Shown here piece by piece: positions 13,426-27,912 of a stretch of DNA of 64,000 bases. The stretch's first letter is position 1, and every line of letters starts with the position of its first letter. The translations under genes were made by a program, and so were the position numbers. The DNA is taken from assembly GCF_025751495.1 (NCBI RefSeq), contig NZ_JAOWKZ010000003.1, forward strand, positions 434,001 to 498,000, given 5' to 3'. The DNA comes from Albidovulum litorale (lineage in GTDB: Bacteria; Pseudomonadota; Alphaproteobacteria; Rhodobacterales; Rhodobacteraceae). The notes beneath the pieces were generated by a model, which did not search any database, was not told the origin of the DNA, and saw only the letters and a program-made list of their open reading frames with translations.

Positions 13426-13464
13426 GCCCCTATAGCTCAGCTGGTAGAGCATCTGATTTGTAAT
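13426..13464 (+). pseudogene. 5' half of a tRNA-Thr(TGT) gene split by integration
   Basis: Acceptor strand GCCCCTA, D arm (GCTCAGCTGGTAGAGC) and the 5' half of the anticodon arm (TCTGA then TTTGTAA) are present, after which the sequence departs into the element. Joined to 27876-27912 it gives a complete tRNA-Thr with 7-bp acceptor stem, 5-bp anticodon stem, anticodon TGT and encoded CCA. It is now non-functional. Confidence 0.9.
13456..13464. other. attL core
   Basis: ATTTGTAAT spans the anticodon loop of the 5' tRNA half and matches 27867-27875 exactly; flanks differ (CTG on the left side, TCCCG inside the element). Confidence 0.8.
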
Positions 13465-13492
13465 TCCCGACAACCCAGACATGCAGACACCC

Positions 13493-13539
13493 GTGGACGG
13501 ATGTCCACCTGCTAAATCAACGAGTTACCTCGGTTGATT
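13493..13539. promoter_or_regulatory. Two inverted repeats between attL and the integrase gene
   Basis: GTGGAC-GGAT-GTCCAC (13493-13508) is a perfect 6-bp inverted repeat. At 13515-13539, AATCAACGAG pairs with CTCGGTTGATT around a 4-base loop with one bulge. They occupy the place where integrase arm sites, directionality-factor sites or an integrase operator are expected. The second contains ATCAACGAGTTAC, a weak relative of the element motif ATAA[C/G]-N3-GTTAT. Confidence 0.45.
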
Positions 13540-13621
13540 GGTTGCGGAAAGGTCGATTTTCACCCGACGTTGGTGGCGAAGTGGCGGTCAAAGCGCCATC
13601 AAACCGACGACGGAGTGAACC

Positions 13622-14869
13622 ATGCCCCATGCAAAGATCACCCAAGCCTATGTGGACGGCCTGCCGTTCTCTGACGCGACTATCTGGCACCACGACACGG
13701 AGCTTGCGGGCTTCAACCTCGCTGTGGGCAAGCGGACGCGCACCTTCTATGCCGCAAGCGAAACGCAGGGGCGCTTCCTGCGCGTGAAGATCGGTCGGTC
13801 AGACCTCGTGCGCGTCAACGTCGCTCGTGACCTCGCGCGCAACGTCCTGCTGCCTGAAATCCGCGCAGGCGTTGACCCAAGGACCAAGCACTGGTCCCAG
13901 GACGACGACGCCCGCACGGCCATGTCTCAGGAGGCGCGGACGGCACTTCGAGCGATCAGGTTCCAGGAGAAGGTCGAGCGCAAGGCGCGTGTCTTGCGCG
14001 ACGATCCCCGCCCGCAACCGGGTCAGGTCGAGACGTTCGCGCAGACTTGGCACGAGTACCGTCACTTTGGCTCCAAGGCAAAGTCCTCGACCCTGACCGA
14101 GTATGAGCGCACCTTGAAGGTCCATGTCCCCGACTGGTTCGAGCGCGCGACCGTCGAGATCACCCCGCAGGACGTGCTGACGACGTGGCGTCGCTTGTCC
14201 CGTTCGAGCGTGGTGACAGCGAAGGCGCTGATGCGCGTCGTCTCGGCTGTGATGCATGATGCGCAGCGGCGTGAGGTGATCACGCGAGTTCCGACGACCT
14301 CGCTCCCGAAGGGTTGGTCAACGGTGATCCGCAACCCGAAGCGGATCAAGGACGTGTTCCATTGGTGGCGCGAGGTTGATCGGATCGACGACCTCTATTC
14401 CAAGAGCGCGCTCAAGGTTCTGCTGCTGACCGGGCTGCGCGTCGGCGAGGTGCTGTCGCTGCGCTGGGAGGACGTTGACCTCGACGCCGCGAAGATTTAC
14501 GTCCGCGACCCGAAGCGCGGCCTGCCGCGTGATGTGGCGATCTCGACCTGGACAGTGCGCCAGTTGAAGCGCCTGCACGAGATCAAGTCAGGCGGCTTCT
14601 GGGTATTCCCGTCGCACGCGCACAAGGGCTACCGCCAGAAGCTCCCTACCATCACCTACAAGGACCAGAAGTGGCGTCCGAAGGACACGCGCAACGAATG
14701 GGATTCTATCGCGACCGAGATCGGTATCCCCCATGCGCAGCGCGCGGCGCAAATGGGTCACGCTGCGGGCAACATGACCGACTCCTACGTCGTGACCCCT
14801 GACGTGCGGAACGCCGTTCAGGCGGTCGCAGACGAGATCATGCAGCGGGTGAAAGGAGCCGCCGTCTGA
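13622..14869 (+). CDS. int: Tyrosine-type site-specific integrase
   Basis: 415 residues. An N-terminal arm-binding region (about 1-85, beta-rich) precedes a core-binding SAM-like domain (about 135-220) and the catalytic domain. The catalytic residues can be read: Arg273 in TGLRVGEVLSLRW, His371 and Arg374 in IPHAQRAAQ, His380 in MGH and the nucleophile Tyr389 in DSYVV. It should recombine ATTTGTAAT in the tRNA-Thr anticodon loop with the circular element. Start ATG at 13622, 158 bases inside attL. Its 3' end overlaps the convergent next gene by 32 bases. Confidence 0.95.
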   Translation: MPHAKITQAYVDGLPFSDATIWHHDTELAGFNLAVGKRTRTFYAASETQGRFLRVKIGRSDLVRVNVARDLARNVLLPEIRAGVDPRTKHWSQDDDARTAMSQEARTALRAIRFQEKVERKARVLRDDPRPQPGQVETFAQTWHEYRHFGSKAKSSTLTEYERTLKVHVPDWFERATVEITPQDVLTTWRRLSRSSVVTAKALMRVVSAVMHDAQRREVITRVPTTSLPKGWSTVIRNPKRIKDVFHWWREVDRIDDLYSKSALKVLLLTGLRVGEVLSLRWEDVDLDAAKIYVRDPKRGLPRDVAISTWTVRQLKRLHEIKSGGFWVFPSHAHKGYRQKLPTITYKDQKWRPKDTRNEWDSIATEIGIPHAQRAAQMGHAAGNMTDSYVVTPDVRNAVQAVADEIMQRVKGAAV

Positions 14870-15581
14870 CGAAGACTTTCGTCTCTGCATCGACGACCGC
14901 CGCGACCTCATGCCCGTCGTGGCGGTATGTCAGTTCCAGGTCGAGGCGACGGCACACCTCAACGGCAAGCTGCTCCCACTTCGGATGCGCCTTTCTGAGC
15001 GCGTTGATCGTGCCGCCTCGCTTCATCGTCAGCGCGCGCAGGACGCGCCCCTGTTGGGAGTTTTCGCGGGGCAGCGACGGGCCGACCAAGGCCCGATCAT
15101 TCGGGCAGTAGAGTGTGCCGTCCTCCCGAACGTCAAAGATGCCGACCGTCTCAACCACTGACGGGAGCGGGATCGAAACGGGTTCTGATGGTTCCTCGGG
15201 TTCGCCTTCGGGCGGGCGCGTCTGCGTCGGCTGGGCCTTCCTCGGCGGCGAGTTGATCGCGGCCCACAGGTCGCGCGATGCCTGCACCTCTTTGGGCTGG
15301 CCGTAGTCAACCTTGCCGTCCATGACCTTGAGCGCCCATTCGTGCAGGCGCTCAGGATCGACGCCCGCAGAATAGCAGGCATGTTCCCGCGACTTCGCCC
15401 ACGCACCGCGAGGGGTGAGCAGGAAGCGCAGGGCCTCCACCCGGTCAAGTTCGATGCGGAAGGCGTCGCCCTTGTCGAAGGCATCGCGCACGGCATGAAG
15501 CACGACCGCCGCCCACAGGCTTTGTTCGGGTCTGCGGGCGGCGTCCGCGTGCGGGTCGGTCGAGTCGAGCCGGGTCGCCAC
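14838..15581 (-). CDS. Hypothetical element protein, 247 aa
   Basis: The first 75 residues (LWAAVVLHAVRDA, then REHACYSAGVDPERLHEWAL split by charged stretches) look like small phage-borne proteins with a Cys and an AG(V/L)DP segment, a DNA-binding-like fold often found near phage regulatory genes. A Pro/Glu-rich linker (about 105-135) leads to a C-terminal region with a helical segment (VLRALTMKRGGTINALRKAH) that could be a winged helix. No assigned function. It is the last gene of the leftward unit and overlaps the integrase 3' end. Confidence 0.65.
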   Translation of the reverse strand: MATRLDSTDPHADAARRPEQSLWAAVVLHAVRDAFDKGDAFRIELDRVEALRFLLTPRGAWAKSREHACYSAGVDPERLHEWALKVMDGKVDYGQPKEVQASRDLWAAINSPPRKAQPTQTRPPEGEPEEPSEPVSIPLPSVVETVGIFDVREDGTLYCPNDRALVGPSLPRENSQQGRVLRALTMKRGGTINALRKAHPKWEQLAVEVCRRLDLELTYRHDGHEVAAVVDAETKVFVRRRLLSPAA

Positions 15582-15585
15582 GGTG

Positions 15586-16008
15586 TCAGGCCGTCAGTGC
15601 CGCGCGCACGTCGTCCGGAGCCTCTTCCCAGGTGCTGACGGGCACGATCCGCTTCATCTCAGCGCGGGCCTGCGTCGTCAGGCGCTGATAGGTGCGAGGA
15701 TCGACAGCACCCGCCCGGATATAGAGCGCGTCGTCGGTCAGGTGGTGCGTCGCCTAGATCACCTGTTTCTGCGCGCCGTCGTCGGTCGGGTTGTCCACGA
15801 CCTGCACGGTTTGGCCAACGGCTTCGGCCATCTTGCGAGCCTTCATGTAGGTCTCTCGATCACGCGCTTGGGCGCGGGTCATGACAAGGTCTTCGGGTTT
15901 GACGTGCACCACGTCAACGCCGAGTTCGTTCGCCTTCGCGACCGTCCGTTTGAACAGGTCCGAGTCTCGGTCGGCTTCGGATTTGGCGATGTAGAGCGGT
16001 TCGGGCAT
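15586..16008 (-). pseudogene. 141-codon element gene interrupted by one in-frame amber codon
   Basis: From the ATG at 16008 the frame reads 84 residues, meets TAG at 15754-15756, then stays open in the same frame for 55 codons to TGA at 15586. The continuation (YQRLTTQARAEM, STWEEAPDDVRAALTA) has normal coding character and no start codon of its own near its beginning. Restoring CAG (Gln) for TAG gives QVIQATHHLTDDALY, a smooth junction, so a single C-to-T change is the simplest explanation. Either a recent nonsense mutation or an amber codon that is sometimes suppressed. Function unknown. Confidence 0.65.
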
Positions 16009-16395
16009 TCTTCATTCCTCTGGTTGGGCGGACAGGCCCGGCTCGTCGCAGGAAGGAGCAACCGCAACCCAAGCCCAGACCTGTCCTTGAGCGGTGCTTG
16101 GGCTGGCGTGACGATGCGGCGAGACAGCCCGAGACGACCATCCGGTGTTTGAGGTCCAGGACGGGCGACGGGCGGGAAAATGAGGTGCTGCGGTCAAGAC
16201 GCCATCAATCTCGTGGCGCTCGTGCTGCCAACCATCGGCAATCGCACACGAACCGCCTTGATCAATGATCACTTGCCGCGACGATCACGGGCCGACCTTC
16301 GCAGAGCGCGTCAGCCAGTGGTGTTTTGGGGAGTTCGGGGGCGACGTAGGGGCTAACCCCAGGACTCGCGGCGCTCGCCTAGCTGGCTGGGGCGC
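16009..16395. other. Gene-poor stretch within the element
   Basis: About 390 bases between the interrupted gene and the 24-residue microprotein. A minus-strand frame at 16012-16272 is open, but its His/Ser/Pro-rich composition looks non-coding. The only feature noticed is TGATCAATGATCA (palindromic TGATCA repeats, 16258-16272), partly echoed near 18113. Nothing else seen. Confidence 0.4.
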
Positions 16396-16470
16396 TTACC
16401 GCAGAGCGATGCAGACGAGTGCCACCATCATCGCGAGCGCGAGGGCTGCGTCCAGGTTCGCGTTCATCAT
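16396..16470 (-). CDS. 24-residue membrane microprotein
   Basis: The reading frame MMNANLDAALALAMMVAL... is one hydrophobic helix ending in ...CIALR, TAA at 16396-16398. Its ATG overlaps the stop of the upstream 140-residue gene (ATGA at 16467-16470), the usual sign of translational coupling, which is why I accept so short a gene. Predicted single-pass inner-membrane peptide; a small holin- or toxin-like role is only one possibility. Confidence 0.5.
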   Translation of the reverse strand: MMNANLDAALALAMMVALVCIALR

Positions 16471-16889
16471 TCGACCGTCAGGGAGGGGATGGCTACGTTG
16501 TCCACGGCTTCCCACGCCTCGGCTAGGGTCATGCCGCGCTCTTTGGCAAGCTGCTGGATCATCCCATCGACGGGAACGCCCATGCGGCGTGCCATCTCGA
16601 TTGTCTTGATCCGGGAGTCGACTGCTTCAATCTCGACCTTGCCCTCGAAGTTCACGGACGACAGCTTGGGTCGGACATACTGGGCGACTTCTTTCATGGC
16701 GGCCAGTGCTACGACGGTTTCGCCTTTGTCGTAGGCCTCCGCGCCGATGATCGCCATGAGCACCACGGGATCGAATTCTTCGTTGCCCGCGTGCAAGCGC
16801 AATTCCCGCAGCTTCGCGTCCATGCGTGCGGACAACTCGTCCTTCGACTTGGTCGGTTTGCCCGTCTTGCGGCCAGAGGAATAACGCAT
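16467..16889 (-). CDS. Hypothetical phage-type protein, 140 aa
   Basis: Basic N terminus (RYSSGRKTGKPTKSK), then a helical region with DPVVLMAIIGAEAYDKG and VAQYVRPKLSSVNFEG, a pattern met in short phage proteins encoded near small-terminase genes; the C-terminal MGVPVDGMIQQLAKERGMT is also helical. Possibly DNA-packaging related, but not diagnostic. It starts inside the stop of the 45-residue gene (TGATG) and ends inside the start of the microprotein gene. Confidence 0.65.
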   Translation of the reverse strand: MRYSSGRKTGKPTKSKDELSARMDAKLRELRLHAGNEEFDPVVLMAIIGAEAYDKGETVVALAAMKEVAQYVRPKLSSVNFEGKVEIEAVDSRIKTIEMARRMGVPVDGMIQQLAKERGMTLAEAWEAVDNVAIPSLTVE

Positions 16890-17026
16890 CAGGCGGACCC
16901 TCCCGAAGGAAAGCCCGCCTGACTGACTGCAACCAAGGAGGAGAGAGCAAAACCGCTCGCCTTGATCATCGCATCCGAGGCGGGGCGATGCGACCGCGAT
17001 TCCAGGTCCAGGTGATTGTTCATCAT
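16889..17026 (-). CDS. Hypothetical 45-residue protein, first gene of a leftward operon
   Basis: Begins MMNNHLDLESRS with AGGGG about 9 bases upstream, and its TGA overlaps the next ATG (TGATG at 16887-16891). Small, soluble, mildly amphipathic. The inverted-repeat operator at 17044-17056 lies 18 bases in front of the start, where a repressor would block the promoter of this three-gene unit. Confidence 0.55.
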   Translation of the reverse strand: MMNNHLDLESRSHRPASDAMIKASGFALSSLVAVSQAGFPSGGSA

Positions 17027-17043
17027 GGCGGTTTGCCCCTTGT

Positions 17044-17056
17044 ATAACTCGGTTAT
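17044..17056. promoter_or_regulatory. Element operator copy 1
   Basis: ATAAC-TCG-GTTAT, a perfect 5-bp inverted repeat with a 3-base centre, immediately upstream of the 45-residue gene. The same motif recurs at 18952, 18983 and 25748. Confidence 0.6.
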
Positions 17057-17060
17057 GCCG

Positions 17061-17396
17061 TTAGGCGGCGTCGTCTGATTGCTGCTTGACCGGGAACGTG
17101 AACGGCGCGCGGTTGGCCGATGCAGCGGGCGGCAGATCGTCGAGCAGGATGCGCCACGGCCAGCCGGGCAGATCGCAGGCGCGCAGGGCATCCGCACCGC
17201 CCACGGAGGCGTTGTGCAGGGCGACGAGTTCGTTCCGGGTCGATGTGTAAACCAGTAGCAGCGTGCCGTCGTCGGTCGTCCAAGGAGTCAGGGCATCCTC
17301 GCCTGAGGAAAAGACCTGCGCCTCCTCGCCAGGTTCGACCGTCCAGGCGTGGGTGTTGGCGAGCCAGAAATCGGCATAGGGGTTCGGGTGCTTCAT
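17061..17396 (-). CDS. Hypothetical element protein, 111 aa
   Basis: Acidic soluble protein (ANTHAWTVEPGEEAQ, TTDDGTLLLVYTSTRNELVAL) with predicted beta structure. No family recognised. Third-position GC and codon use look ordinary. It lies 11 bases downstream of the 77-residue gene in the leftward operon. Confidence 0.65.
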   Translation of the reverse strand: MKHPNPYADFWLANTHAWTVEPGEEAQVFSSGEDALTPWTTDDGTLLLVYTSTRNELVALHNASVGGADALRACDLPGWPWRILLDDLPPAASANRAPFTFPVKQQSDDAA

Positions 17397-17407
17397 CTTT
17401 GGTCCTT

Positions 17408-17641
17408 TCAGCGTGCGGGCGGCACGCGCTTGATGGCGTCGAGCAGGCGGGTGAAGCCTTCGGTGTGGGCATCACGGGACAGGGTGCGCTGCTCCTTCCC
17501 GATGATCACCGTGACGATGGCCGGGTCTTCGTGGCCGAACACCGAGAAGGCGAAGGAGCGGTTATCATAATCCACCGTCTCGCTCTCGATGATGTGGTCG
17601 AGGGGACGTTCCTCGAAGGTCTTGACCGTGCGCTTTGTCAA
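17408..17641 (-). CDS. Hypothetical element protein, 77 aa
   Basis: Soluble, alternating beta pattern (YDNRSFAFSVFGHEDPAIVTVIIGK). No recognisable domain. The ATG overlaps the preceding stop (ATGA at 17638-17641), so it is coupled to the 68-residue gene upstream. Confidence 0.65.
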   Translation of the reverse strand: MTKRTVKTFEERPLDHIIESETVDYDNRSFAFSVFGHEDPAIVTVIIGKEQRTLSRDAHTEGFTRLLDAIKRVPPAR

Positions 17642-17844
17642 AACGGCTTGCCTCCGGTGATCCGGTATGCGCCGGGAGCGCCTTCGTCGCGCGGTCCCGG
17701 CCAGGAATGGCCGACGCGCAGGCCGTTCGATGGGTTGGCGTCTTCGGCCACCTTTCGCTGGTAGCCGGTGGGCTGGTCAGACCAAAAGAAAGTGATCGCG
17801 CAGTCAGTGCGCCGAACGTCCACAAGTGTTGCCGCGTCAAGCAT
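17638..17844 (-). CDS. Hypothetical element protein, 68 aa
   Basis: Starts MLDAATLVDVRR; contains ITFFWSDQPTGYQRK and a Gly/Pro-rich C terminus. No family assigned. It overlaps its upstream neighbour by 8 bases and its downstream neighbour by 4, indicating tight operon packing. Confidence 0.6.
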   Translation of the reverse strand: MLDAATLVDVRRTDCAITFFWSDQPTGYQRKVAEDANPSNGLRVGHSWPGPRDEGAPGAYRITGGKPF

Positions 17845-18022
17845 CGTGCAGCGCCCCCGGCAGGATCAGGTTGGCTTGCGCGCGTTCGGCTTCGGTCGGC
17901 GGCTTGCGCCACTGAACCAGGGGCGTGCCGTCGCGGTCGGCAATGCCTGTCACGTCGAGGCCTTGGGCGCGGAGGGTGGTCAGGCGGTCGTCGGCAATGG
18001 GTGTGGGCTTGGGCTTCTTCAA
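17837..18022 (-). CDS. Hypothetical element protein, 61 aa (TTG start)
   Basis: Begins at TTG with GGAG about 10 bases upstream, reading (M)KKPKPTPIADDRLTTL. Short hydrophilic protein ending LILPGALHDA. It heads the leftward operon that runs to about 17061 and perhaps on to 14838. No function visible. Confidence 0.6.
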   Translation of the reverse strand: MKKPKPTPIADDRLTTLRAQGLDVTGIADRDGTPLVQWRKPPTEAERAQANLILPGALHDA

Positions 18023-18366
18023 GGGGGACTTCTCCTAGCGTTGTCAGTCCCTTACATCTTACAACCCGTCTTCCTGCCATCCGACCGAGATCGAAGGTCC
18101 AGCCGCCCAAACTGATGATCAATCAAGGTGGAACGTCTGCGCCATCAAGCCGTTGACCGCGCGCAGCCGTCAGTTTGACCGATGCTTGACCGCGACCGAT
18201 GGGGCGCGATGCAGGACGACAGCGACGGCTTGCGCGGCGCATGGTGCAGAGCGCGGCAGAGCTGGGGCGCTAGGCGGTGTCTTGCGCTTTTGGGCGTCGA
18301 TGTAGGGCAGAGGCACGAACCGCCTTCGCTGACGCGCTGAGCGCGGTTTTCGTCGATGGGCGCAGA

Positions 18367-18422
18367 ATACGTCACCAAGGCTGACATACCGCGCTCGCGA
18401 GATACGTCACCAAGGCTGACAT
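18367..18422. repeat. Two 21-bp direct repeats, 35-bp period
   Basis: The segments 18367-18387 and 18402-18422 are identical. Each contains GTCACCAAGGCTGAC, itself an imperfect inverted repeat (GTCA...TGAC). They lie about 85-140 bases before the rightward gene at 18507, in a 480-base stretch without a gene (18023-18506) between divergent operons, so they are candidate binding sites for a regulator or replication protein. Confidence 0.7.
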
Positions 18423-18506
18423 TTTGGGTGGTCACGCCCTCTCCTGAAGGATCGGTCGCGGCAGAACGCGCTGCCCTGTATCGTCGGTTCGACGATGGAG
18501 GATGCA

Positions 18507-18755
18507 ATGGACGAGCAAGTGACAATCAGCCTGCCGCTTCGGAAATTGGCCGAACAGATCGGCGACGAGGTGACTGAAGATATGGGAAAGGTCGCCTTCT
18601 ACTTCCATGTCTGCACGGCGCTTGCAGAAGCTGGCCATGCGCGCATCAGTAAGGACGATCTAGCGCAGGTGACGCTCATCGCTTTTCAGCGACGGCAGGA
18701 CCGCTTTCCAAAAGTGCCGATCCTGAACGCCGTGGGCGTTTATTCTCAGGAATGA
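18507..18755 (+). CDS. Hypothetical element protein, 82 aa
   Basis: The start at 18507 (MDEQVTISLPLRKLAEQIG) is favoured by GGAGG 5-6 bases upstream; an ATG four codons earlier coincides with that ribosome-binding site. Helical, amphipathic, with EDMGKVAFYFHVCTALAEAG. It could be a small DNA-binding protein given its place after the direct repeats, but no HTH is certain. Confidence 0.6.
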   Translation: MDEQVTISLPLRKLAEQIGDEVTEDMGKVAFYFHVCTALAEAGHARISKDDLAQVTLIAFQRRQDRFPKVPILNAVGVYSQE

Positions 18756-18768
18756 CGGCTATCTGCAC

Positions 18769-18922
18769 GCGCGCATGTGTATGCGTGAAAAAATGATGAT
18801 GATCCCGAGGCGTCGAAACCAGAATGCTGCACCAGAACGTGCGCGCACGCATATGAACAAAAAAATGATGATGATGAGTATCGCCGCAATCATCATCATT
18901 TTTTTCGCATATGCACGCGCGC
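18769..18922. repeat. Three copies of a 35-bp repeat (two direct, one inverted)
   Basis: Copy 1 (18769-18803) and copy 2 (18841-18875) are direct, copy 3 (18889-18922) is inverted. Each has GCGCGC, nine bases ending in TATG, two to four variable bases, six or seven A residues, then TGATGATGAT. Copies 2 and 3 form a long inverted repeat with 17 uninterrupted paired bases around a 13-base spacer. The whole gap 18756-19096 holds no convincing gene. The layout (A-tracts, repeats, flanking operators) suits a replication origin or a regulatory hub. Confidence 0.75.
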
Positions 18923-18951
18923 GCTATTGAGCGCAGCAGCGATAGCACTGG

Positions 18952-18995
18952 ATAAGCCAGTTATCCTGATCGCCCGTCCTGCATAACCGAGTTAT
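18952..18995. promoter_or_regulatory. Element operator copies 2 and 3
   Basis: ATAAG-CCA-GTTAT (18952-18964) and ATAAC-CGA-GTTAT (18983-18995) have centres 31 bases apart, close to three helical turns, so a dimeric protein bound at both would face the same side. They precede the rightward gene at 19097. Confidence 0.6.
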
Positions 18996-19294: not shown

Positions 19295-19313
19295 TTGCCT
19301 AACCCATGAAACG

Positions 19314-19344
19314 AAAAAGGCCGGCTTGTCGCCGGCCTTCTTTC
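19314..19344. terminator. Bidirectional intrinsic terminator
   Basis: AAGGCCGGC (19317-19325) pairs with GCCGGCCTT (19331-19339) around TTGTC. T-rich ends follow on both strands (CTTTC on plus, TTTTCG on minus), serving both the gene ending at 19294 and the convergent 397-residue gene. Confidence 0.8.
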
Positions 19345-20536
19345 ATTCGACGGTGTAAACCCGCCCAGGTTCGATTTTCTCGATAGGCGGGATGCAGTCC
19401 AGAAGGTAGCCGTCAATGACAGGCTCACGCCCCTCAGCATCCAGGCCCGCGCGCCTCATTGCCTCGTCCCGTGCATCGGCCCCGCCGGGAATGTCGTGCT
19501 CATCAACGTCCCGCCACCGCCAGACGTAGGGCGTGAACTCGTAGTACCATTCCGCCTTGCGTTCGATCCAAACGCGGCGGCGGTCCTGTTCAATGGTCTC
19601 GCCTTCGACGGCCAGGGACGACGGCACTTTGACGCGAACCTTGAGCAACCTGTCCGTGCGCGCCATGCCGCGCGTCCATGCGTCCCAACGCAGCGTCCGC
19701 TCAACGATCACCTGCGAGGACCATTCCCAGCGGAAATCGTCCGAGACAAAGTTCTGGAACGTCGTGACGACCTCGTGGGTTTCCGGTTTCGGGTCGTCAG
19801 CGCGGTAGCGCGGAAAACCTGCATCGACCAGCTTCTTGAGCGCCGCCGCGTCTTCGCTCTCGTCCTTGCGGTGCCGAAACTCGAACTGAGGCCGTTCAGG
19901 GTTCGCCGGATCGAAGCACATGTGATAGGAGATTGTCTCGTAGTCACGCAGGCGCTTGAACTCCTGTAGGGCCGCGACTTCGCCCCTGGTGTCGTGAACG
20001 TCCTTCACCCAGGTATCGAGCATCTCGAAACGGTCAAACTGCTCGCGGGCGCACCGTTCCCAGCGTTCGAGTGCCGACATGACACGCAAACGCCATGCAA
20101 CGGCGCGCTCCCTGACCGCAGGCCATTCCTTCGGCTCACCGCGCGACATCCAGGTCTGGAACGAACTCGGCTTGCAGAGGTCATCCAGAGCAAGGGCACG
20201 ATACCACCAGGTGTTCGGCGCATATTCGAGCGCCACCTTGCGGAATGCGTCGATGGTTTCCGGGATCTCAGGCGGTTCGCAGGCCGGACGCGGATCACGC
20301 GCGACCTCACGCCGCAACTCGGCCAGAAGCTGCGCGATAGGTTCCCAGACGTGATCGCCGTTGATCGCTTTGCGCAGCGTCGATTCCGAGATTTCCTTCT
20401 GGAGGCGCGGATGCTTGCGCGCCATGTGCTGCGCGCGAGGCACGATCTTCTTCACGACCCCACGATAGGTCCGAAGCAATTCGTCTTGTTCCCAGAAGAA
20501 GTCGGTCTCGTCCTGTCTCTCGCGGAACGTCGTCAT
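19343..20536 (-). CDS. Hypothetical element protein, 397 aa
   Basis: Large soluble protein. The N terminus (about 25-70: YRGVVKKIVPRAQHMA, STLRKAINGD) has an XRE-like HTH flavour, consistent with DNA binding; the remainder is rich in Trp and Arg with acidic patches and a long helical middle. It is the last gene of a three-gene unit with the small 77-residue gene and the excisionase-like gene, joined by ATGA overlaps. In similar elements this position often holds a replication initiator, but no motif proves that. Confidence 0.65.
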   Translation of the reverse strand: MTTFRERQDETDFFWEQDELLRTYRGVVKKIVPRAQHMARKHPRLQKEISESTLRKAINGDHVWEPIAQLLAELRREVARDPRPACEPPEIPETIDAFRKVALEYAPNTWWYRALALDDLCKPSSFQTWMSRGEPKEWPAVRERAVAWRLRVMSALERWERCAREQFDRFEMLDTWVKDVHDTRGEVAALQEFKRLRDYETISYHMCFDPANPERPQFEFRHRKDESEDAAALKKLVDAGFPRYRADDPKPETHEVVTTFQNFVSDDFRWEWSSQVIVERTLRWDAWTRGMARTDRLLKVRVKVPSSLAVEGETIEQDRRRVWIERKAEWYYEFTPYVWRWRDVDEHDIPGGADARDEAMRRAGLDAEGREPVIDGYLLDCIPPIEKIEPGRVYTVE

Positions 20537-21105: not shown

Positions 21106-21828
21106 ATGACCATTGATCCTCGAATCCTTGAACTATGCGAGAAGGTTACGGCGAAGCGTCCGCGCACCGTGATCGACTTCATCTTGAAGCACGGCCAGGT
21201 CACGACAGACGACCTGCTCGAACTCGGCTATGCCCATGCCCCGCGTGCTGCGCGCGACGTGCGGGAGCAAGGCGTGCCGCTGGAAACGATCAGTGTGACG
21301 AGTGAGAAGTCGGGGCGGCGAATGGCTGCCTATGTCTTCGGTGATCCGTCGCAGATTAAAGCGGGTCGGATCGGCGGGCGGAAAGCCTTCTCGAAACCCT
21401 TCAAGGAAAAGCTGCTCGCCCACTATGGGTCGCGCGAGGCGTTCACGAATGAAGTCCTCGACGGACGCTATCTGCAAATCGACCACCGCGTGCCATACGA
21501 GGTCGCGGGCGACGGTGCGCAGCACGAAGGCGATCCGGCGGAATACATGCTTCTCGACGCATCGAGCCAGCGCGCGAAGTCTTGGTCCTGCGAGGCCTGC
21601 GAGAACTGGAAAGCGATCCAGGACGAGTCGATCTGCCGCGCCTGCCTGTGGGCGTTCCCTGAGGACTACTCCCACATTGCGATGAAGCAGGTTCGCCGCG
21701 TTGATGTTCAGTGGCAGGACGACGAAGTTGCGGTGTTCGATGCGCTGAAAGCGAGGGCGGATGCCGAAGGGACGACGGTCGCCCTCCTGCTCAAATCGCT
21801 AGCGCGATCTGCGTCGGGCCTCGAATGA
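21106..21828 (+). CDS. Type II restriction endonuclease, HNH type (putative)
   Basis: 240 residues. An N-terminal winged-helix region (about 18-80) precedes an HNH core: IDHRVP at 125-130, then SSQRAKSW where family members usually have Asn instead of Gln, and a zinc-type Cys quartet (162, 165, 177, 180). The helix-turn-helix plus HNH layout and a tail-to-tail N6-adenine methylase gene point to a restriction partner. Convergent with the methylase, overlapping it by 38 bases. Target sequence unknown. A homing-type role is the alternative. Confidence 0.75.
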   Translation: MTIDPRILELCEKVTAKRPRTVIDFILKHGQVTTDDLLELGYAHAPRAARDVREQGVPLETISVTSEKSGRRMAAYVFGDPSQIKAGRIGGRKAFSKPFKEKLLAHYGSREAFTNEVLDGRYLQIDHRVPYEVAGDGAQHEGDPAEYMLLDASSQRAKSWSCEACENWKAIQDESICRACLWAFPEDYSHIAMKQVRRVDVQWQDDEVAVFDALKARADAEGTTVALLLKSLARSASGLE

Positions 21829-22678
21829 TCTCGGGCGTCGGCTCGGCCAGCCCCTCGGACATGTAGAGGCTCTCGACCGTCTCGGCCTTGCGACCAGAAA
21901 GCGTCGCCTGTGACGACGTGCCTGCGTGCAGCAGGAGGCGTGTCATGCGCAGGTGATCCGGCAGAGGCGGGCCATATTCCTTGTCCCCGGTCATCCCGTC
22001 ATAGGACAAGGCGAATGGGATCGACCGGTCATTGAGGCTCGCTAGTCCTTCGATCAGCGGTTCCTGCGTCATCTGCTGGTGATACCGCTTGTCCGGCCCG
22101 ACCGACGTTCCGAGATAGGGTGGGTCCATGTAGATGAAGTCCTGTGTCGTCGCATCGGCGGTCGTTTCGAGCCAGTCACCAACCCGAAACTCGGTCCTGC
22201 CGCGTAGCAGTGACGACACGCCGAGAACTGCTTCGCGCATCTTCTCCGGGCGCATCCCAAGGCGACGCTTGTCCACGGATTGCGTGAAGCGGCCAGAGGC
22301 GTTGAACCTGACCGCGTTCTTGACGCATCGGCAGATCAGATAGAGCAGATCGACCGGGTCGCGTTCCGCGTTGTATCGGTCGCGCACCTCGTTGAAGTAT
22401 CCCGTGTTGCCATCCGTCTGGCCGAGCCAGATTTCCTTGTAGCGCGCAGCCGTCGCGTCCGGGCGCTCGACAATCGCCTCCTGCAACTGGACGATGGGTT
22501 CCAGGCTGTCTGCGATAACGAAGCGGTCAGCGAGGCCCTTGTGGGCCGCGTAGATCGTCATGGCGGCTGAACCGCAGAACGGTTCGTAGAAGGTCTTCGA
22601 CCGGGGCACATATTGGGCGATGATCGGCGCGAGCTTTCGCTTGCTGCCCTGATACGGGATGGCGTGAGGTAGGCGCAT
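21791..22678 (-). CDS. DNA N6-adenine methyltransferase (Dam/D12 class)
   Basis: 295 residues from the ATG at 22678. Motif X (PYQGSKRKL, 8-16), motif I (FYEPFCGSAA, 30-39, S-adenosylmethionine binding) and motif IV DPPY (185-188) are in the alpha order of the D12 class. It should methylate adenine in a short site and protect DNA against the neighbouring HNH enzyme. The start has no in-frame upstream family sequence, so the shorter form is preferred. Its 3' end overlaps the endonuclease gene. Confidence 0.9.
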   Translation of the reverse strand: MRLPHAIPYQGSKRKLAPIIAQYVPRSKTFYEPFCGSAAMTIYAAHKGLADRFVIADSLEPIVQLQEAIVERPDATAARYKEIWLGQTDGNTGYFNEVRDRYNAERDPVDLLYLICRCVKNAVRFNASGRFTQSVDKRRLGMRPEKMREAVLGVSSLLRGRTEFRVGDWLETTADATTQDFIYMDPPYLGTSVGPDKRYHQQMTQEPLIEGLASLNDRSIPFALSYDGMTGDKEYGPPLPDHLRMTRLLLHAGTSSQATLSGRKAETVESLYMSEGLAEPTPEIIRGPTQIALAI

Positions 22679-22691
22679 GAATCTTCCTTTT

Positions 22692-24059
22692 CTATCTTCT
22701 AACCCGCGCAAGCACTTGGTCACAACATGCAGTTTGCGGAAATGCAGGGTCAACCAGATGCTGCGTCGGGCGGTTCCTGACCACGCCGTGCTCTGTCTTA
22801 GACCACCTGCTCGGGCATACGACCAACTCGACCACGGCAATCGCCATCGCGGCGGTGTGCAGGAAGGCATAAAGCGGCAAGGCGAACGCATCCCAAGGCG
22901 ACCGTCCGGCCCTGATCGCCGCGACCATGAAGACGACGATTGTCAGGGCATATCCTGCGAACAGGAGGACGGCCAAAGGGCCGTGGGGATCGTTGAACGC
23001 GACGGCCATGCCGACAGGATGGGACGCGAGGCACAGAAGCTGCACAGGGAGTTGAACAGCAAGGGCGACACGATCACGCAGCCGCATCGGCGGGGTCCAG
23101 CGGTCGATTGCCTTCGGCAACAGGCCGTGGACGAGTACGGTTTGAAGCCAACCTTTGATCCATCGGGAACGCTGCTTGATCCAGGCCGTGACGGTCACGG
23201 GTGCCTCCTCCCCCGTAACAGACAGGACGACTGACGACGTGTAGCCAGCGCGCGCCAGCCTGACTGCAAGGTCTGCATCCTCAGTAACCGAGTGTGCGTC
23301 AAAGGCACCCACGGCTTCCAAGACGTCGCGCCTGAAATATTGACTTGTGCCCCCGAGGAGGAACGGAAGGCCGAACCGGCTCAGGAACGGGAGCACTCCC
23401 CTGAACAACACGCAGTATTCTAGGTGCCACAGCCTCGTGACCAGCGACCCGTCATGATCACATGCGAGAACGCCCTGGACGACGGCGCACCTGGAATCAG
23501 ACAGGAGCCGTGCGACGGCACGCTTCGGTTGATCCTCGGCGGGTCGATCTTCGGCGTCATAGACGACGACTATTTCCCCTGACGTATTCAACAACCCGAA
23601 ATTGACCGCCCTCGGCTTTGTCCGCGGCCTGCCATCAGGCACGACCAAGACCTGAAACGGCCAGACAGGCAGGACGGCTTGGGTTTCCAAGTCGTCCTCC
23701 TCCACGAGCAGCACGATTTCCAACGACGGGTAGTCAAGGGCGCGCATTGCAGCGGCAAGGTCCGGGATCACTGACGGCTCGCGATAGACGGGCAAGAGGA
23801 CGGTCAGGCGCGGCCATCTTGCAGGCTCTGGGTCGTGATGATCCGTCCACCTGATCAGCGCGGCCGCCCTGAGTGTCAGGACAGCGAGAAAGCACGGCAC
23901 GAGCAGCCATGCCGGTGGCGGCCAGATCAGCGGCAGCAGGGCGACGAGGACGACGACCGCGCCAAGCCAAGGCTCCCTGATCGAACGGGCAGATAGGTGT
24001 TCTGGAACAGATGAGGCGGCCCACGAGGCCGCCTCTTGCGCAGGATCGACGTGCCGCAT
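22692..24059 (-). CDS. Membrane-bound family 2 glycosyltransferase
   Basis: 455 residues. Two N-terminal membrane helices, a GT-A catalytic domain with VYDAED (nucleotide-sugar/metal binding), TEDADLAVRL (catalytic Asp) and QRSRW (the QxxRW motif), then several C-terminal helices. This is the processive or polysaccharide-type GT2 layout. On a mobile element it most likely alters the host cell envelope, as serotype-converting phages do. The 26-residue membrane gene ends 3 bases before its start, so the two should be co-translated. Confidence 0.85.
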   Translation of the reverse strand: MRHVDPAQEAASWAASSVPEHLSARSIREPWLGAVVVLVALLPLIWPPPAWLLVPCFLAVLTLRAAALIRWTDHHDPEPARWPRLTVLLPVYREPSVIPDLAAAMRALDYPSLEIVLLVEEDDLETQAVLPVWPFQVLVVPDGRPRTKPRAVNFGLLNTSGEIVVVYDAEDRPAEDQPKRAVARLLSDSRCAVVQGVLACDHDGSLVTRLWHLEYCVLFRGVLPFLSRFGLPFLLGGTSQYFRRDVLEAVGAFDAHSVTEDADLAVRLARAGYTSSVVLSVTGEEAPVTVTAWIKQRSRWIKGWLQTVLVHGLLPKAIDRWTPPMRLRDRVALAVQLPVQLLCLASHPVGMAVAFNDPHGPLAVLLFAGYALTIVVFMVAAIRAGRSPWDAFALPLYAFLHTAAMAIAVVELVVCPSRWSKTEHGVVRNRPTQHLVDPAFPQTACCDQVLARVRR

Positions 24060-24062
24060 GGG

Positions 24063-24143
24063 TCACACCAGCGCGGCGATGATCGCGCCCCACACACCGA
24101 TGCTCAGGACCGCCCCCGGAAGAATCCACCAGCCGGGCGTCAT
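24063..24143 (-). CDS. 26-residue membrane microprotein
   Basis: Reads MTPGWWILPGAVLSIGVW... and ends ...AALV, a single hydrophobic helix. The ATG overlaps the upstream stop (ATGA at 24140-24143) and the TGA lies 3 bases before the glycosyltransferase ATG. This tight placement between two genes is the main evidence that it is translated. It may be an accessory subunit of the glycosyltransferase. Confidence 0.55.
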   Translation of the reverse strand: MTPGWWILPGAVLSIGVWGAIIAALV

Positions 24144-24343
24144 GCGTGGCACTCCGAGGCGAACTGTTGGAGCAGGAAGGCGGGCGTGCACTCGCAGCCG
24201 TCTTGGTCGATCATCGGCAGGCCGAGCCGGTAGACGGCGATCTGCGCGCCGGTGTCGAGGGATAGTTGCTGCGCCGTCTCCATCGCGGTCAGCAGGTCGT
24301 CGAGGTCGTCAAAGAGGGTCGAGGCCACCAAGATGCGATACAT
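24140..24343 (-). CDS. Hypothetical element protein, 67 aa
   Basis: MYRILVASTLFDDLDDLLTA at the start, a compact alpha/beta protein with two Cys near the C terminus (DGCECTPAF). No family recognised. First gene of a three-gene unit with the microprotein and the glycosyltransferase; the terminator of the preceding gene lies just upstream. Confidence 0.6.
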   Translation of the reverse strand: MYRILVASTLFDDLDDLLTAMETAQQLSLDTGAQIAVYRLGLPMIDQDGCECTPAFLLQQFASECHA

Positions 24344-24370
24344 TTCTGGAACTCCGTTGTTGGAATCGAA

Positions 24371-24392
24371 AGGCCCGCCGAGTGGCGGGCCT
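24371..24392 (-). terminator. Intrinsic terminator-like hairpin
   Basis: AGGCCCGCC and GGCGGGCCT form a perfect 9-bp stem with a 4-base loop, followed on the minus strand by TTTCG. It lies 34 bases after the GIY-YIG-like gene. Confidence 0.65.
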
Positions 24393-24425
24393 GTTTCGTT
24401 GATGCGGTGAGGGCTGGTTCCAGTA

Positions 24426-24836
24426 TCAACCGGAACCGAAGGATAGCGCGGCCAAGGTCATGACGATGCCGAACCAGCCGATGGCTTCGACGAGGCCGCG
24501 CAGGACACGGAAGGCACGACGGCCAAGGGACGGCTTCGATGCGGTCGAACGGCCCAGCGCCTTGATGGCTGCGGGCACAGACAGGCGGAACCATTCACGG
24601 GCATCGTTGACGCGGTAGCGGGCAAGCGCCGCGTGAGCGTCGCGCTCTGCCGCCCGCACGTCGTCAACGGCCCAAGCAGCGGCAACGTGGAACGGCATCG
24701 GAACGCCCGTCGATGCCAACTCCTGCGCACGTTCCTCTGGCGACCTTGTGGTCATCCCGATCTTGACCAACGCAGGCATCGCTGGATTGGTCAGGAGGTA
24801 GAGCCAGCCGGGTTCGATCACGGTGAGCGGCATCAT
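24426..24836 (-). CDS. GIY-YIG-like (T5orf172/MUG113-type) nuclease domain with membrane tail
   Basis: 136 residues. GWLYLLTNP and VKIGMTTRS match the first strands of the T5orf172 branch of the GIY-YIG fold; EERAQELASTGVP and the DAREWF helix complete it. A C-terminal hydrophobic helix (IGWFGIVMTLAALSF) would anchor it in the membrane, unusual for this domain. The ATG overlaps the stop of the upstream regulator-like gene. Phage proteins of this class are thought to act on DNA, but catalytic activity here is not assured. Confidence 0.75.
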   Translation of the reverse strand: MMPLTVIEPGWLYLLTNPAMPALVKIGMTTRSPEERAQELASTGVPMPFHVAAAWAVDDVRAAERDAHAALARYRVNDAREWFRLSVPAAIKALGRSTASKPSLGRRAFRVLRGLVEAIGWFGIVMTLAALSFGSG

Positions 24837-25693
24837 TTGCAAGCCGCCACGCGGGCCTCCTCGCGCGTCGCCGTCGCCTCGCGCACGGGCAGCGCCTTCA
24901 TGCCTTCGGGCAGCAGGAGGAAATACTTGTCGCCCTTGCGCTCGACACCGAGGCCAATTGCGCCAACGTCGGTGCGGATGGCAGACGAAACCGTCGAGCG
25001 GTTCCAGCCGAGCAGGCTTTCCAGGTGTTCCAGCGTGCAGCCACGCGACAGCGCCTGAATGAGCAGCGCGCGCTTGCTGCCCTCCTTCGTCGGCTTCACG
25101 TCCTCGACCTTGCCGGGTTGGAGCAGAACGCGGTCCTCAAGGACGCGCACTTTCTTCGTCGTGGGCATCGCGACAACGTTCGCGGCCTTCTTGTCGGCTT
25201 TCGTCGGCTGAACCGTTGCCTTCGCCTCGACACCTTCGGCCAGCAGGTCGAAGGCGACGCGGATACCGAGGTCCGTCAGAACCTGCTGGACGGCACCTTC
25301 GCCGTTCACCGGGTCGCAATCGGTCACGACGAGGCCTTTCGTCGAGAGCGACGTGAGCACGCCGTTGACTTGCTTCTTCGAGAGACCAGTGCGCTTCGCC
25401 GTCTCCGCAACGTCGCTCCAGGTCATGTTGTCGGCCAGCATCTCCTCGCAGGTTTCGCAGCCGTTGCAGTCGATCCCGGCTTCCAGGTGCGCGACGGTCA
25501 CGGCCTTTTCGAGCGGGGTCAGGTTCTGGATCACGTCGCCCAGCGTCGGTTCGGTCGGGCGCGCCTGCTCCCCGGCCATCTCCACGAGGTCTGCGTGGGA
25601 GGTCTTCTTGATCTGGCTCGCGGTCAGTTCGATCCCAGCGGCTTTCAGGGCGGCTGCGAGTTCGGCTTTGGTCATGTCGATGAAGTCGGTCAT
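24833..25693 (-). CDS. HTH protein with DUF3489-like C terminus
   Basis: 286 residues from the ATG at 25693 (GGAG 8 bases upstream). The N-terminal segment MTKAELAAALKAAG is SAP-like; the middle (about 90-150: DVAETAKRTGLSKKQVNGVL) is a winged HTH; the C-terminal KRALLIQALSRGCTLEHLES and LGWNRSTVSSAI resemble DUF3489, another wHTH. CNGCETCEEM may bind metal. Operator copy 4 lies 55 bases before the start, so it is both controlled by that site and a candidate for the protein that binds it. Confidence 0.7.
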   Translation of the reverse strand: MTDFIDMTKAELAAALKAAGIELTASQIKKTSHADLVEMAGEQARPTEPTLGDVIQNLTPLEKAVTVAHLEAGIDCNGCETCEEMLADNMTWSDVAETAKRTGLSKKQVNGVLTSLSTKGLVVTDCDPVNGEGAVQQVLTDLGIRVAFDLLAEGVEAKATVQPTKADKKAANVVAMPTTKKVRVLEDRVLLQPGKVEDVKPTKEGSKRALLIQALSRGCTLEHLESLLGWNRSTVSSAIRTDVGAIGLGVERKGDKYFLLLPEGMKALPVREATATREEARVAACK

Positions 25694-25747
25694 GTCAGTT
25701 GCTCCGTTGATGATCGTTCCGGGTTTGTTCCCGGCGATGCACAACGT

Positions 25748-25760
25748 ATAAGCGAGTTAT
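25748..25760. promoter_or_regulatory. Element operator copy 4
   Basis: ATAAG-CGA-GTTAT upstream of the leftward 286-residue HTH gene, one base different in the left half from copies 1 and 3. Confidence 0.6.
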
Positions 25761-25884
25761 CGTATCTCGCTCAACCGGGGAAATGACCTCAAGCATCTGA
25801 AATCAGACGACTTTTTCGAGGTCGCCGGTTGAACGACCGGGCGAGCGTGCGGACGTTGTGAGCCTATCAACGGAGGCAACCGCC

Positions 25885-26148
25885 ATGAATCTCACGGCAA
25901 TCTCGGGTATCGCCCACTTCGTCGTCGCGACAGACGACGCCCAGGAAATCCTGCACCTCATGCGGTGCGCACTGCAAACACCCGGCTACGGGGAGCATCA
26001 GATCGCGCACTTCACCATCATGAAGCAGCCGAAGACTTTCACCTTGTCGGACGGCATCACGACGTTGACGGTGCCCCTGTCCGACGCCTCAGACCTGCTC
26101 GAACAGATGGATGAGATGAAGCAGGATTTGGGGGAGGTTGCGGTATGA
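25885..26148 (+). CDS. Hypothetical element protein, 87 aa
   Basis: ATG at 25885 with GGAGG 8 bases upstream. Alpha/beta protein with a C-terminal helix (DLLEQMDEMKQDLG). No domain recognised. Its stop overlaps the start of the double-HNH gene (ATGA, 26145-26148), so the two are co-expressed; it may be an inhibitor or specificity partner of that nuclease. Confidence 0.6.
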   Translation: MNLTAISGIAHFVVATDDAQEILHLMRCALQTPGYGEHQIAHFTIMKQPKTFTLSDGITTLTVPLSDASDLLEQMDEMKQDLGEVAV

Positions 26149-27245
26149 AGGAGATCACACTGACCCAGGAGCAGATCGAACAGGGGCGCGCGGCTGCGAT
26201 GAAGCGCGATGGCAAGTATAGGCCGACACCGCCCGAGGCAGTCGCGCTGGCGCGGCAGTTGTTCGAGGAGCGAAGGAAGTTCACTGAACGCGAAGCGAAG
26301 GAAGTTGCTGCCTTGATCGGGTGGAGCCACGTTACCATCTGGCAACGCTACCTGATGGGCGAGTTGGGCCTTCCGACACCCAACATCGAACGCGCGCTCG
26401 CGTTCACAGCAGGTCAGCATACCTACACACGCACGGATGGCACGGTGCGCCGGGTCAACGACGGCCGGAACTTTCATCATGACCGTGCGAACTGGATAGG
26501 GCAAGCGGCGATGGGCGCAGCCTTCCCGGGTTTCAGTGCCGACGACTACGGGCGTCTATGGGATGAGAGCGGTGGGCGTTGTCCTTGCTGCGGCGTCGAG
26601 ATGGACGGTGCTGAGAAAGCCAGAAATGCGACGGTTGACCATCTGGTCCCGGGCGTCCGGTCGATAGCGAACGCGCGTCTTCTATGCTCCGCGTGCAACG
26701 TGATCAAAGCGAACGCGCTGCCGGAAACTCTGCACCGCGTCGCTGATTGGATGCAAAAGACCCCCACGGAAATGCTAGCCGTCGCGCGCACTTTGCCCGC
26801 GATGCCGAGGCGTCGGGTCGATGGGCAGGACAGGTGGAAGGCGATGCTTTGGCATAAGAAGGCAGGAGCGAATGAGTGCGGCATCGACTTCAACTTGGCA
26901 CTCCACGACTTGCCATTCACGGCTGTCTGTCCGGTCCTCGGTGTCCCGTTCTTGCTGCCGGGATCAGAGGAGTCGCTTTCGGCCTGCCGCGCATCAGGTG
27001 TGAAGCGTGGTCGCAACTTCTGGAACTCCCCCTCCTTCGACCGGATCGACCCGAGGCAGGGCTACGTCGCAGGCAACGTCGTGCTAGTCTCAAACCTCGC
27101 GAACAAGATCATGTCCAACGGGACCTCCCCCGACCGTGTCCGTCTCGTGGCCGACTGGTTCGAGCGGGAACTTGCAACAGCGCCTGACCTTGCCGCGCTG
27201 ATCGACTACGACGCGCACGAGCACTGGAAGATCGCCGCAGAATGA
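26145..27245 (+). CDS. Protein with two HNH-type nuclease modules
   Basis: 366 residues. A helical/HTH region (about 45-75: AKEVAALIGWSHVTIWQRYL) is followed by a classical zinc HNH module (C146, C149, D165-H166, C181, C184-N185) and, near the C terminus, by SFDRIDPRQGYVAGNV (298-312), the DRIDP...GNV signature of a second phage-type HNH fold with conserved Asn at 311 and 320. Having both in one chain is uncommon. A homing, packaging-associated or defence role are all possible. Coupled to the 87-residue gene. Confidence 0.75.
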   Translation: MKEITLTQEQIEQGRAAAMKRDGKYRPTPPEAVALARQLFEERRKFTEREAKEVAALIGWSHVTIWQRYLMGELGLPTPNIERALAFTAGQHTYTRTDGTVRRVNDGRNFHHDRANWIGQAAMGAAFPGFSADDYGRLWDESGGRCPCCGVEMDGAEKARNATVDHLVPGVRSIANARLLCSACNVIKANALPETLHRVADWMQKTPTEMLAVARTLPAMPRRRVDGQDRWKAMLWHKKAGANECGIDFNLALHDLPFTAVCPVLGVPFLLPGSEESLSACRASGVKRGRNFWNSPSFDRIDPRQGYVAGNVVLVSNLANKIMSNGTSPDRVRLVADWFERELATAPDLAALIDYDAHEHWKIAAE

Positions 27246-27313
27246 TGCGCTCTCGCGGCGCTGACCAGGCAACGACAGGCACGACGCCAACGAGCGCGAC
27301 GACAGACGCGGGC

Positions 27314-27631
27314 CTAGACCCGGATGCCTGCCCGTTTAAACAATGCCTCGGGGAAATCGGACGGCGGGACACCCGCCTTCATCGCATCGGTCAGAGCCTT
27401 TGCGATCTTCTTCCGATGCTTCTCTTCGGTCTTTGCCGTGCCGACAGAGGCGGTCGGGAACAGCTTGTTTTCCGGCAGTTCGCGAATATACGGCTCTAGG
27501 GTCTTCATCGCCTTGCTGCGTGCCAGGATGATGCGGTACTCGATGCTGTCCGGCGTATCCTGATCAGGCATCGGAAGATGGTCAGGCCCTTTGGGCAGGT
27601 CGCGTCCGCGATTGGTGTCGTTCTCGCTCAT
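27314..27631 (-). CDS. Hypothetical element protein, 105 aa
   Basis: Begins MSENDTNRGRDLPKGPDH, a disordered N terminus, then two helices (IILARSKAMKTLEPYIREL, KHRKKIAKALTDAMKAG). The last protein gene before attR, convergent with the HNH gene. No recognised family. Confidence 0.65.
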   Translation of the reverse strand: MSENDTNRGRDLPKGPDHLPMPDQDTPDSIEYRIILARSKAMKTLEPYIRELPENKLFPTASVGTAKTEEKHRKKIAKALTDAMKAGVPPSDFPEALFKRAGIRV

Positions 27632-27713
27632 GGGTTGAGCATCGCACGACCAAGTTTTACTGGCAAGATGGGTTGCGAGTCAGAGCGTTAGCGTGATAGT
27701 GGGAACGGGCGTA

Positions 27714-27786
27714 GCCCTTATAGCTCAGCTGGTAGAGCACCTGACTTGTAATCAGGGGGTCCGGCGTTCGAATCGTCGTGGGGGCA
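27714..27786 (+). tRNA. tRNA-Thr (anticodon TGT), element-borne replacement
   Basis: 73 bases: acceptor GCCCTTA/TGGGGGC with two G-U pairs, D arm GCTCAGCTGGTAGAGC, anticodon stem CCTGA/TCAGG with loop CTTGTAA (TGT, reads ACA), variable GGGTC, T arm CGGCG-TTCGAAT-CGTCG. No CCA is encoded (CGC follows). It has the same anticodon as the host gene broken by the element and several sequence differences, so it is an independently evolved copy that should keep the cell supplied. Confidence 0.95.
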
Positions 27787-27866
27787 CGCAAAATCAGCAA
27801 TCAAATACCGGTCAAACCGTGGTGTCAGGCCCGCTAACCGCTTGATTGAAGGCGCGATCCGGCGTC

Positions 27867-27912
27867 ATTTGTAATCAGAGGGTCGGCGGTTCAAGTCCGT
27901 CTGGGGGCACCA
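27867..27912 (+). pseudogene. 3' half of the split host tRNA-Thr(TGT), with attR core
   Basis: The attR core ATTTGTAAT (27867-27875) continues into TCAGA (completing the anticodon stem), the variable loop, T arm GGCGG-TTCAAGT-CCGTC, acceptor TGGGGGC and encoded ACCA ending at 27912. It has no 5' half in place. Excision would rejoin it to 13426-13464. Confidence 0.9.

Follow-up and report, generated by a model that had tools for sequence, protein, structure and literature searches.

The window, a 64,000-nucleotide stretch of the genome of Albidovulum litorale (a 4.05-Mb draft assembly in 13 contigs, with a completeness of 99.99%), contains a 14.4-kb element (13456-27875, core to core) that interrupts the host gene for tRNA-Thr(TGT) in its anticodon loop. 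We propose with considerable confidence (a probability of about 0.86) that this element is an integrative island that split a single-copy host tRNA gene and that would supply a foreign tRNA-Thr(TGT) as its replacement in the decoding of ACA codons. The positions of all features discussed are given in Table 1.

The insertion in the anticodon loop, as described in the original prediction, is confirmed by the 9-bp core ATTTGTAAT, which is exactly the repeat common to both ends of the element and is flanked on its outer sides by the two halves of the host gene. When joined, the halves are identical in 76 of 76 nucleotides (nt) to the intact tRNA found at the orthologous site of a congener (genome G394, L152:2029-2104), and the left flank is 89.6% identical to that of the same congener over 1564 bp, up to the core. 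A 21-nt stretch of the 3' half has a single match in the window at 3 or fewer mismatches. Because the joined halves equal the intact orthologue and the native upstream flank is kept, the element must have entered an intact gene and broken it. The further claim that neither end rebuilds the gene agrees with ARAGORN, Rfam and the comparison of the junctions, by which no functional tRNA is found at attL or attR, only the two halves being present there and the ends sharing just the 9 bp. Simple 3'-end integration is ruled out, given that no gene is restored, and so is the reading of the 5' half as a displaced fragment, given its retained native upstream flank. Among the 19 congener loci with the upstream flank, a complete tRNA-Thr(TGT) is present in 15 and absent from 4; one further congener, outside these 19, has a divergent tRNA-Thr(TGT) at the orthologous place. 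Chance does not account for the arrangement: the broken 5' half occurs in 1 of 394 genomes of the family, the window's own, as judged by one fixed pattern that divergent cases would escape, and the right end is found again in a genome from another family (G734, below).

It had also been stated that most tRNA integrations use the 3' end of the gene and restore it. This needs correcting as to the site, as the Islander table gives 2083 islands with an anticodon-centred site and 1836 with a site in the T-stem region, along with 3760 islands with a 3' tDNA fragment and 159 with a 5' one (PMC4383910). What is unusual is that the target is not restored, rather than the position in the anticodon loop.

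The complete tRNA-Thr(TGT) of different sequence that had been noted 80 bp inside the right end is detected by both ARAGORN and Rfam (65.1 bits in the latter, compared with a gathering score of 29) and is the one complete tRNA in the element. It shares 60 of 73 positions with the host gene, which rules out that it is a duplicate of that gene. Its closest relative found is the Thr(TGT) gene on plasmid pRlX5 of Rhizobium leguminosarum (70/73 identities), and a Thr(TGT) of Shinella shares 66 of 73 positions with it. The pRlX5 gene belongs to a cluster of five tRNA genes for Trp, Thr-CGT, Thr-TGT, Cys and Arg (L198:19609-20372); as this cluster holds the closest relative, the carried tRNA may derive from a mobile tRNA pool. 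The carried tRNA is predicted to fold into a cloverleaf in which the stems pair, with two G-U pairs in the acceptor stem.

Within the limits of a draft assembly and of the tRNA listing, the disrupted host gene looks non-redundant. Following the check that the original prediction had proposed, the genome was searched for another TGT gene by a tRNA list, two patterns and BLAST, and none was found. The Rfam model RF00005 gave at least 40 tRNAs, and among the matches listed are one Thr(TGT), which is the carried gene, one Thr(GGT) and one Thr(CGT). The strict anticodon-arm pattern matched the carried gene alone in this genome, the pattern with 2 mismatches added just Lys(TTT) and Thr(CGT), and BLAST with the flank and the 5' half recovered the query itself, the carried gene and Thr(CGT) only. 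Across the genus, the exact-pattern TGT arm is found once in 18 of 22 genomes (including the window's own, in which that copy is the carried gene), is missing from 4 and is found twice in none; two of the 4 have a divergent Thr(TGT) by ARAGORN and the other two are 87-89% complete. Of 29 long open reading frames (ORFs) of the window, selected mechanically, 26 use ACA, which accounts for 74 of 13,087 codons. The anticodons GGU and CGU are not known to read ACA, and a tRNA with TGT should therefore be essential. These results support the earlier suggestion that the host's decoding of ACA may depend on the carried tRNA, and we think that it very probably does, judging from the sequences; the carried tRNA would then be expressed, matured, charged and essential, as we infer.

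Two related elements were found, and together with that of the window they have in common the integrase, a glycosyltransferase, a T5orf172 protein, a regulator and several small proteins. The copy in G734, a genome of another family, consists of blocks that are 68-96% identical to the window; its right end stops at the same core, which is followed by the tRNA 3' half of a different host. Since identical runs reach 192 bp in the 6.6-kb left block, the excess of identity at the right end (273 bp, including the carried tRNA) is present, yet not extreme. As this copy shows, the element keeps the carried tRNA as a lasting component. Its integrase match starts at model position 119, with one TAG counted inside. 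The element in G044 is a more distant relative, with an integrase 48% identical in the alignment. It also targets tRNA-Thr(TGT) yet restores it, with a complete tRNA at one end and a 49-bp repeat at the other; its junction thus holds an intact target tRNA, as in Islander-type islands, whereas the window junctions do not.

Several observations weigh against the proposed dependence. A further TGT gene might have gone unseen, the assembly being a draft and the tRNA list non-exhaustive; no tRNA for Tyr, Ile(GAT) or Ala(TGC) is among the at least 40 listed, which may reflect a non-exhaustive list, an incomplete assembly or missing rRNA operons. The fold of the carried tRNA is no more stable than those of shuffled sequences (z -0.88, with 37 of 200 folding at least as well); the z of the native tRNA is -2.83. 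Among 40 tRNAs of this genome listed, the carried one alone is clearly without an encoded CCA (one Asp copy runs into masked bases, so that its CCA status is unreadable), and it would consequently need a CCA-adding enzyme. A promoter scan upstream of the carried tRNA found nothing, and the possible weak promoter picked out by eye, which ends 13 bp upstream of the tRNA, scored below the threshold of the scan. Finally, G734 has both the carried copy and, about 26 kb from the element, a complete native tRNA-Thr(TGT), so this host need not depend on the carried copy and dependence is not universal. A second integrase gene lies between the element and that native tRNA (L207:378-1535, Phage_integrase 2.4e-12), and a 49-bp repeat connects the native tRNA with the right end of the element; in our reading, the two elements form a tandem array, and the native gene stays intact because the second one is of the restoring type.

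Some of these observations also bear on other explanations. The missing isotypes and the 13 contigs would suit a second functional Thr(TGT) gene lying in an assembly gap or overlooked, in which case the split would be without consequence; given the completeness of 99.99%, the failure of both patterns and of BLAST to find such a gene, and the lack of any genus genome with two exact-pattern copies, we regard this as very unlikely. That the carried tRNA is a decayed passenger, with ACA being read by a modified Thr isoacceptor, would fit its two acceptor-stem G-U pairs, the lack of CCA and the weak z-score of its fold, but its stems pair, its covariance score is well above the threshold and it is identical in two element copies that diverge elsewhere. 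To our knowledge, no Thr isoacceptor with GGU or CGU reads ACA, and we hold a decayed passenger to be highly improbable.

The carried tRNA could also have a different role, for instance in codon supply on transfer or in protection against host anticodon nucleases, with the rescue as a side effect. We consider this unlikely: although its near-identity to a gene of the five-tRNA cluster of pRlX5 may point to a mobile tRNA pool, and it is kept in G734 despite the native gene there, the carried anticodon is that of the split gene, the tRNA is positioned at the attachment end and, of the three family members known, G044, the one without an extra tRNA, is the one that restores its target. The chance that the whole arrangement is an assembly artefact is practically negligible; the left junction is seen in this genome only, but both junctions lie within one 887-kb contig and the right junction recurs in G734 with the tRNA half of another host.

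Under the proposed splitting and replacement of the host tRNA gene, the tyrosine integrase would join attP and attB at the 9-bp core, and the native tRNA-Thr(TGT) would be cut by the integration; because the island and its target share just this core, integration destroys the gene. The carried foreign tRNA would then take over the decoding of ACA. Recombination between attL and attR would rebuild the exact native gene, and clean excision should thus be harmless; a penalty would fall on any deletion or decay that removed the carried tRNA while the native gene was split. The term addiction-like, used in the original prediction, is consequently apt for imprecise loss or decay, which would be costly, and not for precise excision. 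Such a link would guard the right end of the island rather than act as post-segregational killing. The restriction-modification pair of the island may add its own retention effect.

The G044 element may also bear on how such dependence arose. Its integrase adjoins the displaced 3' half, whereas the integrase of the window adjoins the 5' half; the stretch from the core to the integrase start is partly conserved between the two, most clearly near the integrase, with the core in opposite orientation. The anticodon stem-loop CTGATTTGTAATCAG differs from its own reverse complement in the three central bases and in nothing else, i.e., CTGATT-TGT-AATCAG is a dyad broken only by the anticodon, and the same type of integrase could therefore insert either way. 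It is possible, although doubtful, that dependence goes back to a reversal of the island on this near-palindromic target, after which it acquired a foreign tRNA. With the orientation seen in G044, the usual one, the tRNA would be rebuilt by the carried 3' half; in the reverse orientation (window and G734), that half would be useless, and a whole tRNA would be taken up from a mobile tRNA pool. A search of the element ends for tRNA 3'-half remnants in either orientation found none, the scores being like those of shuffled sequences (the lowest count was 19 of 300, in one of twelve comparisons), so that the reversal is still a conjecture and its odds are a little lower. If it is true, the island would not be lost by deletion of its tRNA end, and clean excision would be harmless.

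Table 1. Features of the island and of its attachment site, in window coordinates.
Feature	Position	Strand	Remarks
Host tRNA-Thr(TGT) 5' half, ends in the 9-bp core	13426..13464	+	Identical to the intact L152 orthologue at its positions 1-39
attL core ATTTGTAAT	13456..13464	+	Exact 9-bp repeat
Tyrosine integrase, 415 amino acids (aa)	13622..14869	+	Pfam PF00589 4.2e-15; PHROG integrase 7.1e-34
Core protein of the element family, 140 aa	16467..16889	-	95.7% in G734, 45% in G044
Core protein of the element family, 111 aa	17061..17396	-	98% in G734, 75% in G044
397-aa protein, also present in the G734 copy	19343..20536	-	98% over 397 aa
Type II restriction enzyme, by family match	21106..21828	+	PADLOC REase_II 1.2e-53
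D12-class adenine DNA methyltransferase	21791..22891	-	PF02086 1.8e-27; PADLOC MTase_II 2.5e-67
GT2-family glycosyltransferase, in all three elements	22692..24059	-	PF13632 7.5e-22; 87% G734, 65% G044
T5orf172-domain protein, in all three elements	24426..24842	-	PF10544 3.7e-17; 56% G734, 66% G044
Putative winged-helix regulator, in all three elements	24833..25744	-	Pfam helix-turn-helix matches below cut-off; phrog_7790 9.7e-16
Endonuclease VII / HNH-like nuclease	26145..27245	+	PF02945 2.3e-5; phrog_3322 2e-23
273-bp run identical to the G734 element	27567..27839	+	Contains the carried tRNA plus 147 bp on its upstream side
Possible weak promoter of the carried tRNA (TTGCGA, 16 bp, GATAGT)	27673..27700	+	By eye; 8/12 consensus bases
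Carried complete tRNA-Thr(TGT)	27714..27786 (Rfam); 27714-27787 (ARAGORN)	+	CCA not encoded
attR core ATTTGTAAT	27867..27875	+	Exact 9-bp repeat
Host tRNA-Thr(TGT) 3' half with CCA	27876..27912	+	

The integrase starts 157 bp from the left core, and a motif scan found R273, H371-x-x-R374, H380 and Y389, which we take to be its catalytic residues. The 397-aa protein has no match in Pfam, PHROG, NCBIfam or PADLOC, and the restriction enzyme ORF has none in Pfam, PHROG or NCBIfam. The true start of the D12 methyltransferase is probably internal to its ORF. The Pfam family of the methyltransferase differs among the three elements, being MethyltransfD12 in the window, N6_N4_Mtase in G734 (L202) and N6_Mtase in G044 (L129), and the module with the glycosyltransferase has opposite orientations in the window and in the G734 copy. 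The Pfam and PHROGs scans each covered 19 different element ORFs out of a larger number that includes many smaller overlapping ones; within this set of 19, no phage structural, packaging or lysis family was found with PHROGs and no relaxase family with Pfam, and a single Pfam GpA_ATPase match was below cut-off (E 0.052). The G+C content of the element (57-66%) is near that of the flanks (62-67%), and no arm-site repeats were found. The carrier thus looks like an island with no recognisable phage structural genes, and we do not class it as lysogeny.

This type of integrase is rare in the genomes sampled. In the family, it matched 6 of 394 genomes at E ≤ 1e-20, strongly only in the window's own genome and G044. 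A two-row profile matched 2 of 390 genomes in the order sample (own and G044) and 2 of 367 in the class sample (own and G734), and the single protein matched 2 of 22 genomes of the genus, the second at 25% identity; the four samples overlap, and the search in the order of G734 covered one genome. No close integrase relatives were found elsewhere: the 17 IMG/VR loci had weak partial matches, none of which was confirmed on re-check; the best 80 of 109 matches in GTDB contigs had a top E value of 9e-18, the longest being 22-27% identical; and the 13 phage and 10 plasmid records were all below 60% identity, with the fullest matches at 20-25% in both cases.

No ORF of at least 200 aa in the right flank of the window matched any of 9 congener stretches (1.4-19.6 kb) at E ≤ 1e-25, and comparisons among 8 congener stretches and the window yielded three matches at E ≤ 1e-10, all weak, one of which involved the window. 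The right flank is therefore non-collinear with the congeners and unusable as evidence. In the 8 congeners (L208-L210, L212-L216), the DNA 3' of tRNA-Thr is nearly unrelated while the upstream side is conserved; the downstream side of this gene is a boundary of genome plasticity. Three congeners have a clearly divergent tRNA-Thr(TGT), which shares 49, 61 and 61 of 73 positions with the host gene in L172 (G399), L174 (G407) and L164 (G395), respectively, and that of G395 has an apparent anticodon-stem mismatch, as if its halves were of different origin. These divergent tRNAs hint at repeated tRNA replacement in the genus; no integrase family was found in the ORFs tested, 5 from L172 and 3 from L176.

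Halves of similar tRNAs were also observed in viral contigs. Thirteen of 15 pattern-matched IMG/VR contigs (L179, L182-L193) have a tRNA-Thr(TGT)-like 5' half followed by non-tRNA DNA, and the following sequence is common to 9 of the 13. RF00005 detected no tRNA at E ≤ 0.001 in 12 of these 13 records; the remaining one has four matches, one of which is typed Asn by ARAGORN (three of the four were scanned). These viruses may provide the 5' half of the tRNA gene, possibly together with a promoter, and in this way restore the gene. In another IMG/VR contig (L181, 145 kb), a tRNA-like sequence near 5021 on the minus strand has a TGT-type anticodon arm in which an interruption of about 30 bases precedes the closure of the stem; inspected by eye, it resembles a tRNA that contains an intron-like insert.

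The arrangement in the window resembles tRNA-dependent lysogeny, which was described and tested experimentally in mycobacterial phages (Guerrero-Bustamante and Hatfull, mBio 2024, PMC10865867), with further cases or candidates in other actinobacteriophages, including Gordonia phages (PMC10865867). Shared features are a tyrosine integrase, an attB in a tRNA gene, a short core (9 bp here, 8-17 bp in the table for those phages), junctions neither of which rebuilds the tRNA, the carriage of a tRNA of the same isotype and the existence of restoring relatives; the tRNA carried by Fionnbharth is likewise not close to that of its host (PMC10865867). Those systems are temperate actinobacterial phages in which the requirement was tested, whereas the system described here is known from sequence and is a 14.4-kb island of an alphaproteobacterium-type genome with tRNA-Thr(TGT) as its target. 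In Sinorhizobium meliloti, two prophages resembling Mesorhizobium phage vB_MloP_Lo5R7ANS break tRNA-Leu(UAG) and carry a foreign copy (PMC11476347; also mentioned in PMC12429752). Unlike the window island, these are intact prophages, 2 of 88 integrated sequences, in a different tRNA gene; for the tRNA-carrying genomic islands of the same survey, breakage of the target is not described in the sections drawn on here (PMC11476347). The junctions of Lactobacillus johnsonii prophage Lj965 also lack a rebuilt tRNA and the cognate tRNA is carried, although this is a prophage in a lactobacillus (cited in PMC10865867).

With the Islander islands, the window island shares an integrase, a tRNA target and an anticodon-centred site, and its G044 relative fits that class (PMC4383910). 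The Islander search principle needs an intact tRNA plus a fragment, which two fragments and a foreign tRNA do not provide (PMC4383910); finders of this type would consequently miss islands such as this one. No case of tRNA-dependent integration on a non-phage island was recognised in the open-licence literature, which was surveyed mostly by titles and abstracts. The logic of the system is already known; new here are the island as carrier, with its restriction-modification pair, the target, the close copy from another family in which the same tRNA adjoins the tRNA half of a different host, and the availability of a more distant, restoring relative in opposite orientation. The window thus adds a small island with restriction-modification genes to the phages and prophages in which tRNA-dependent integration was known and suggests a route by which a foreign gene may replace a single-copy tRNA gene. 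The evolutionary relation of the restoring and dependent modes was called unclear by the authors of the 2024 study (PMC10865867), and the restoring and non-restoring members of the element family described here can be compared with each other, which bears on the evolution of both modes.

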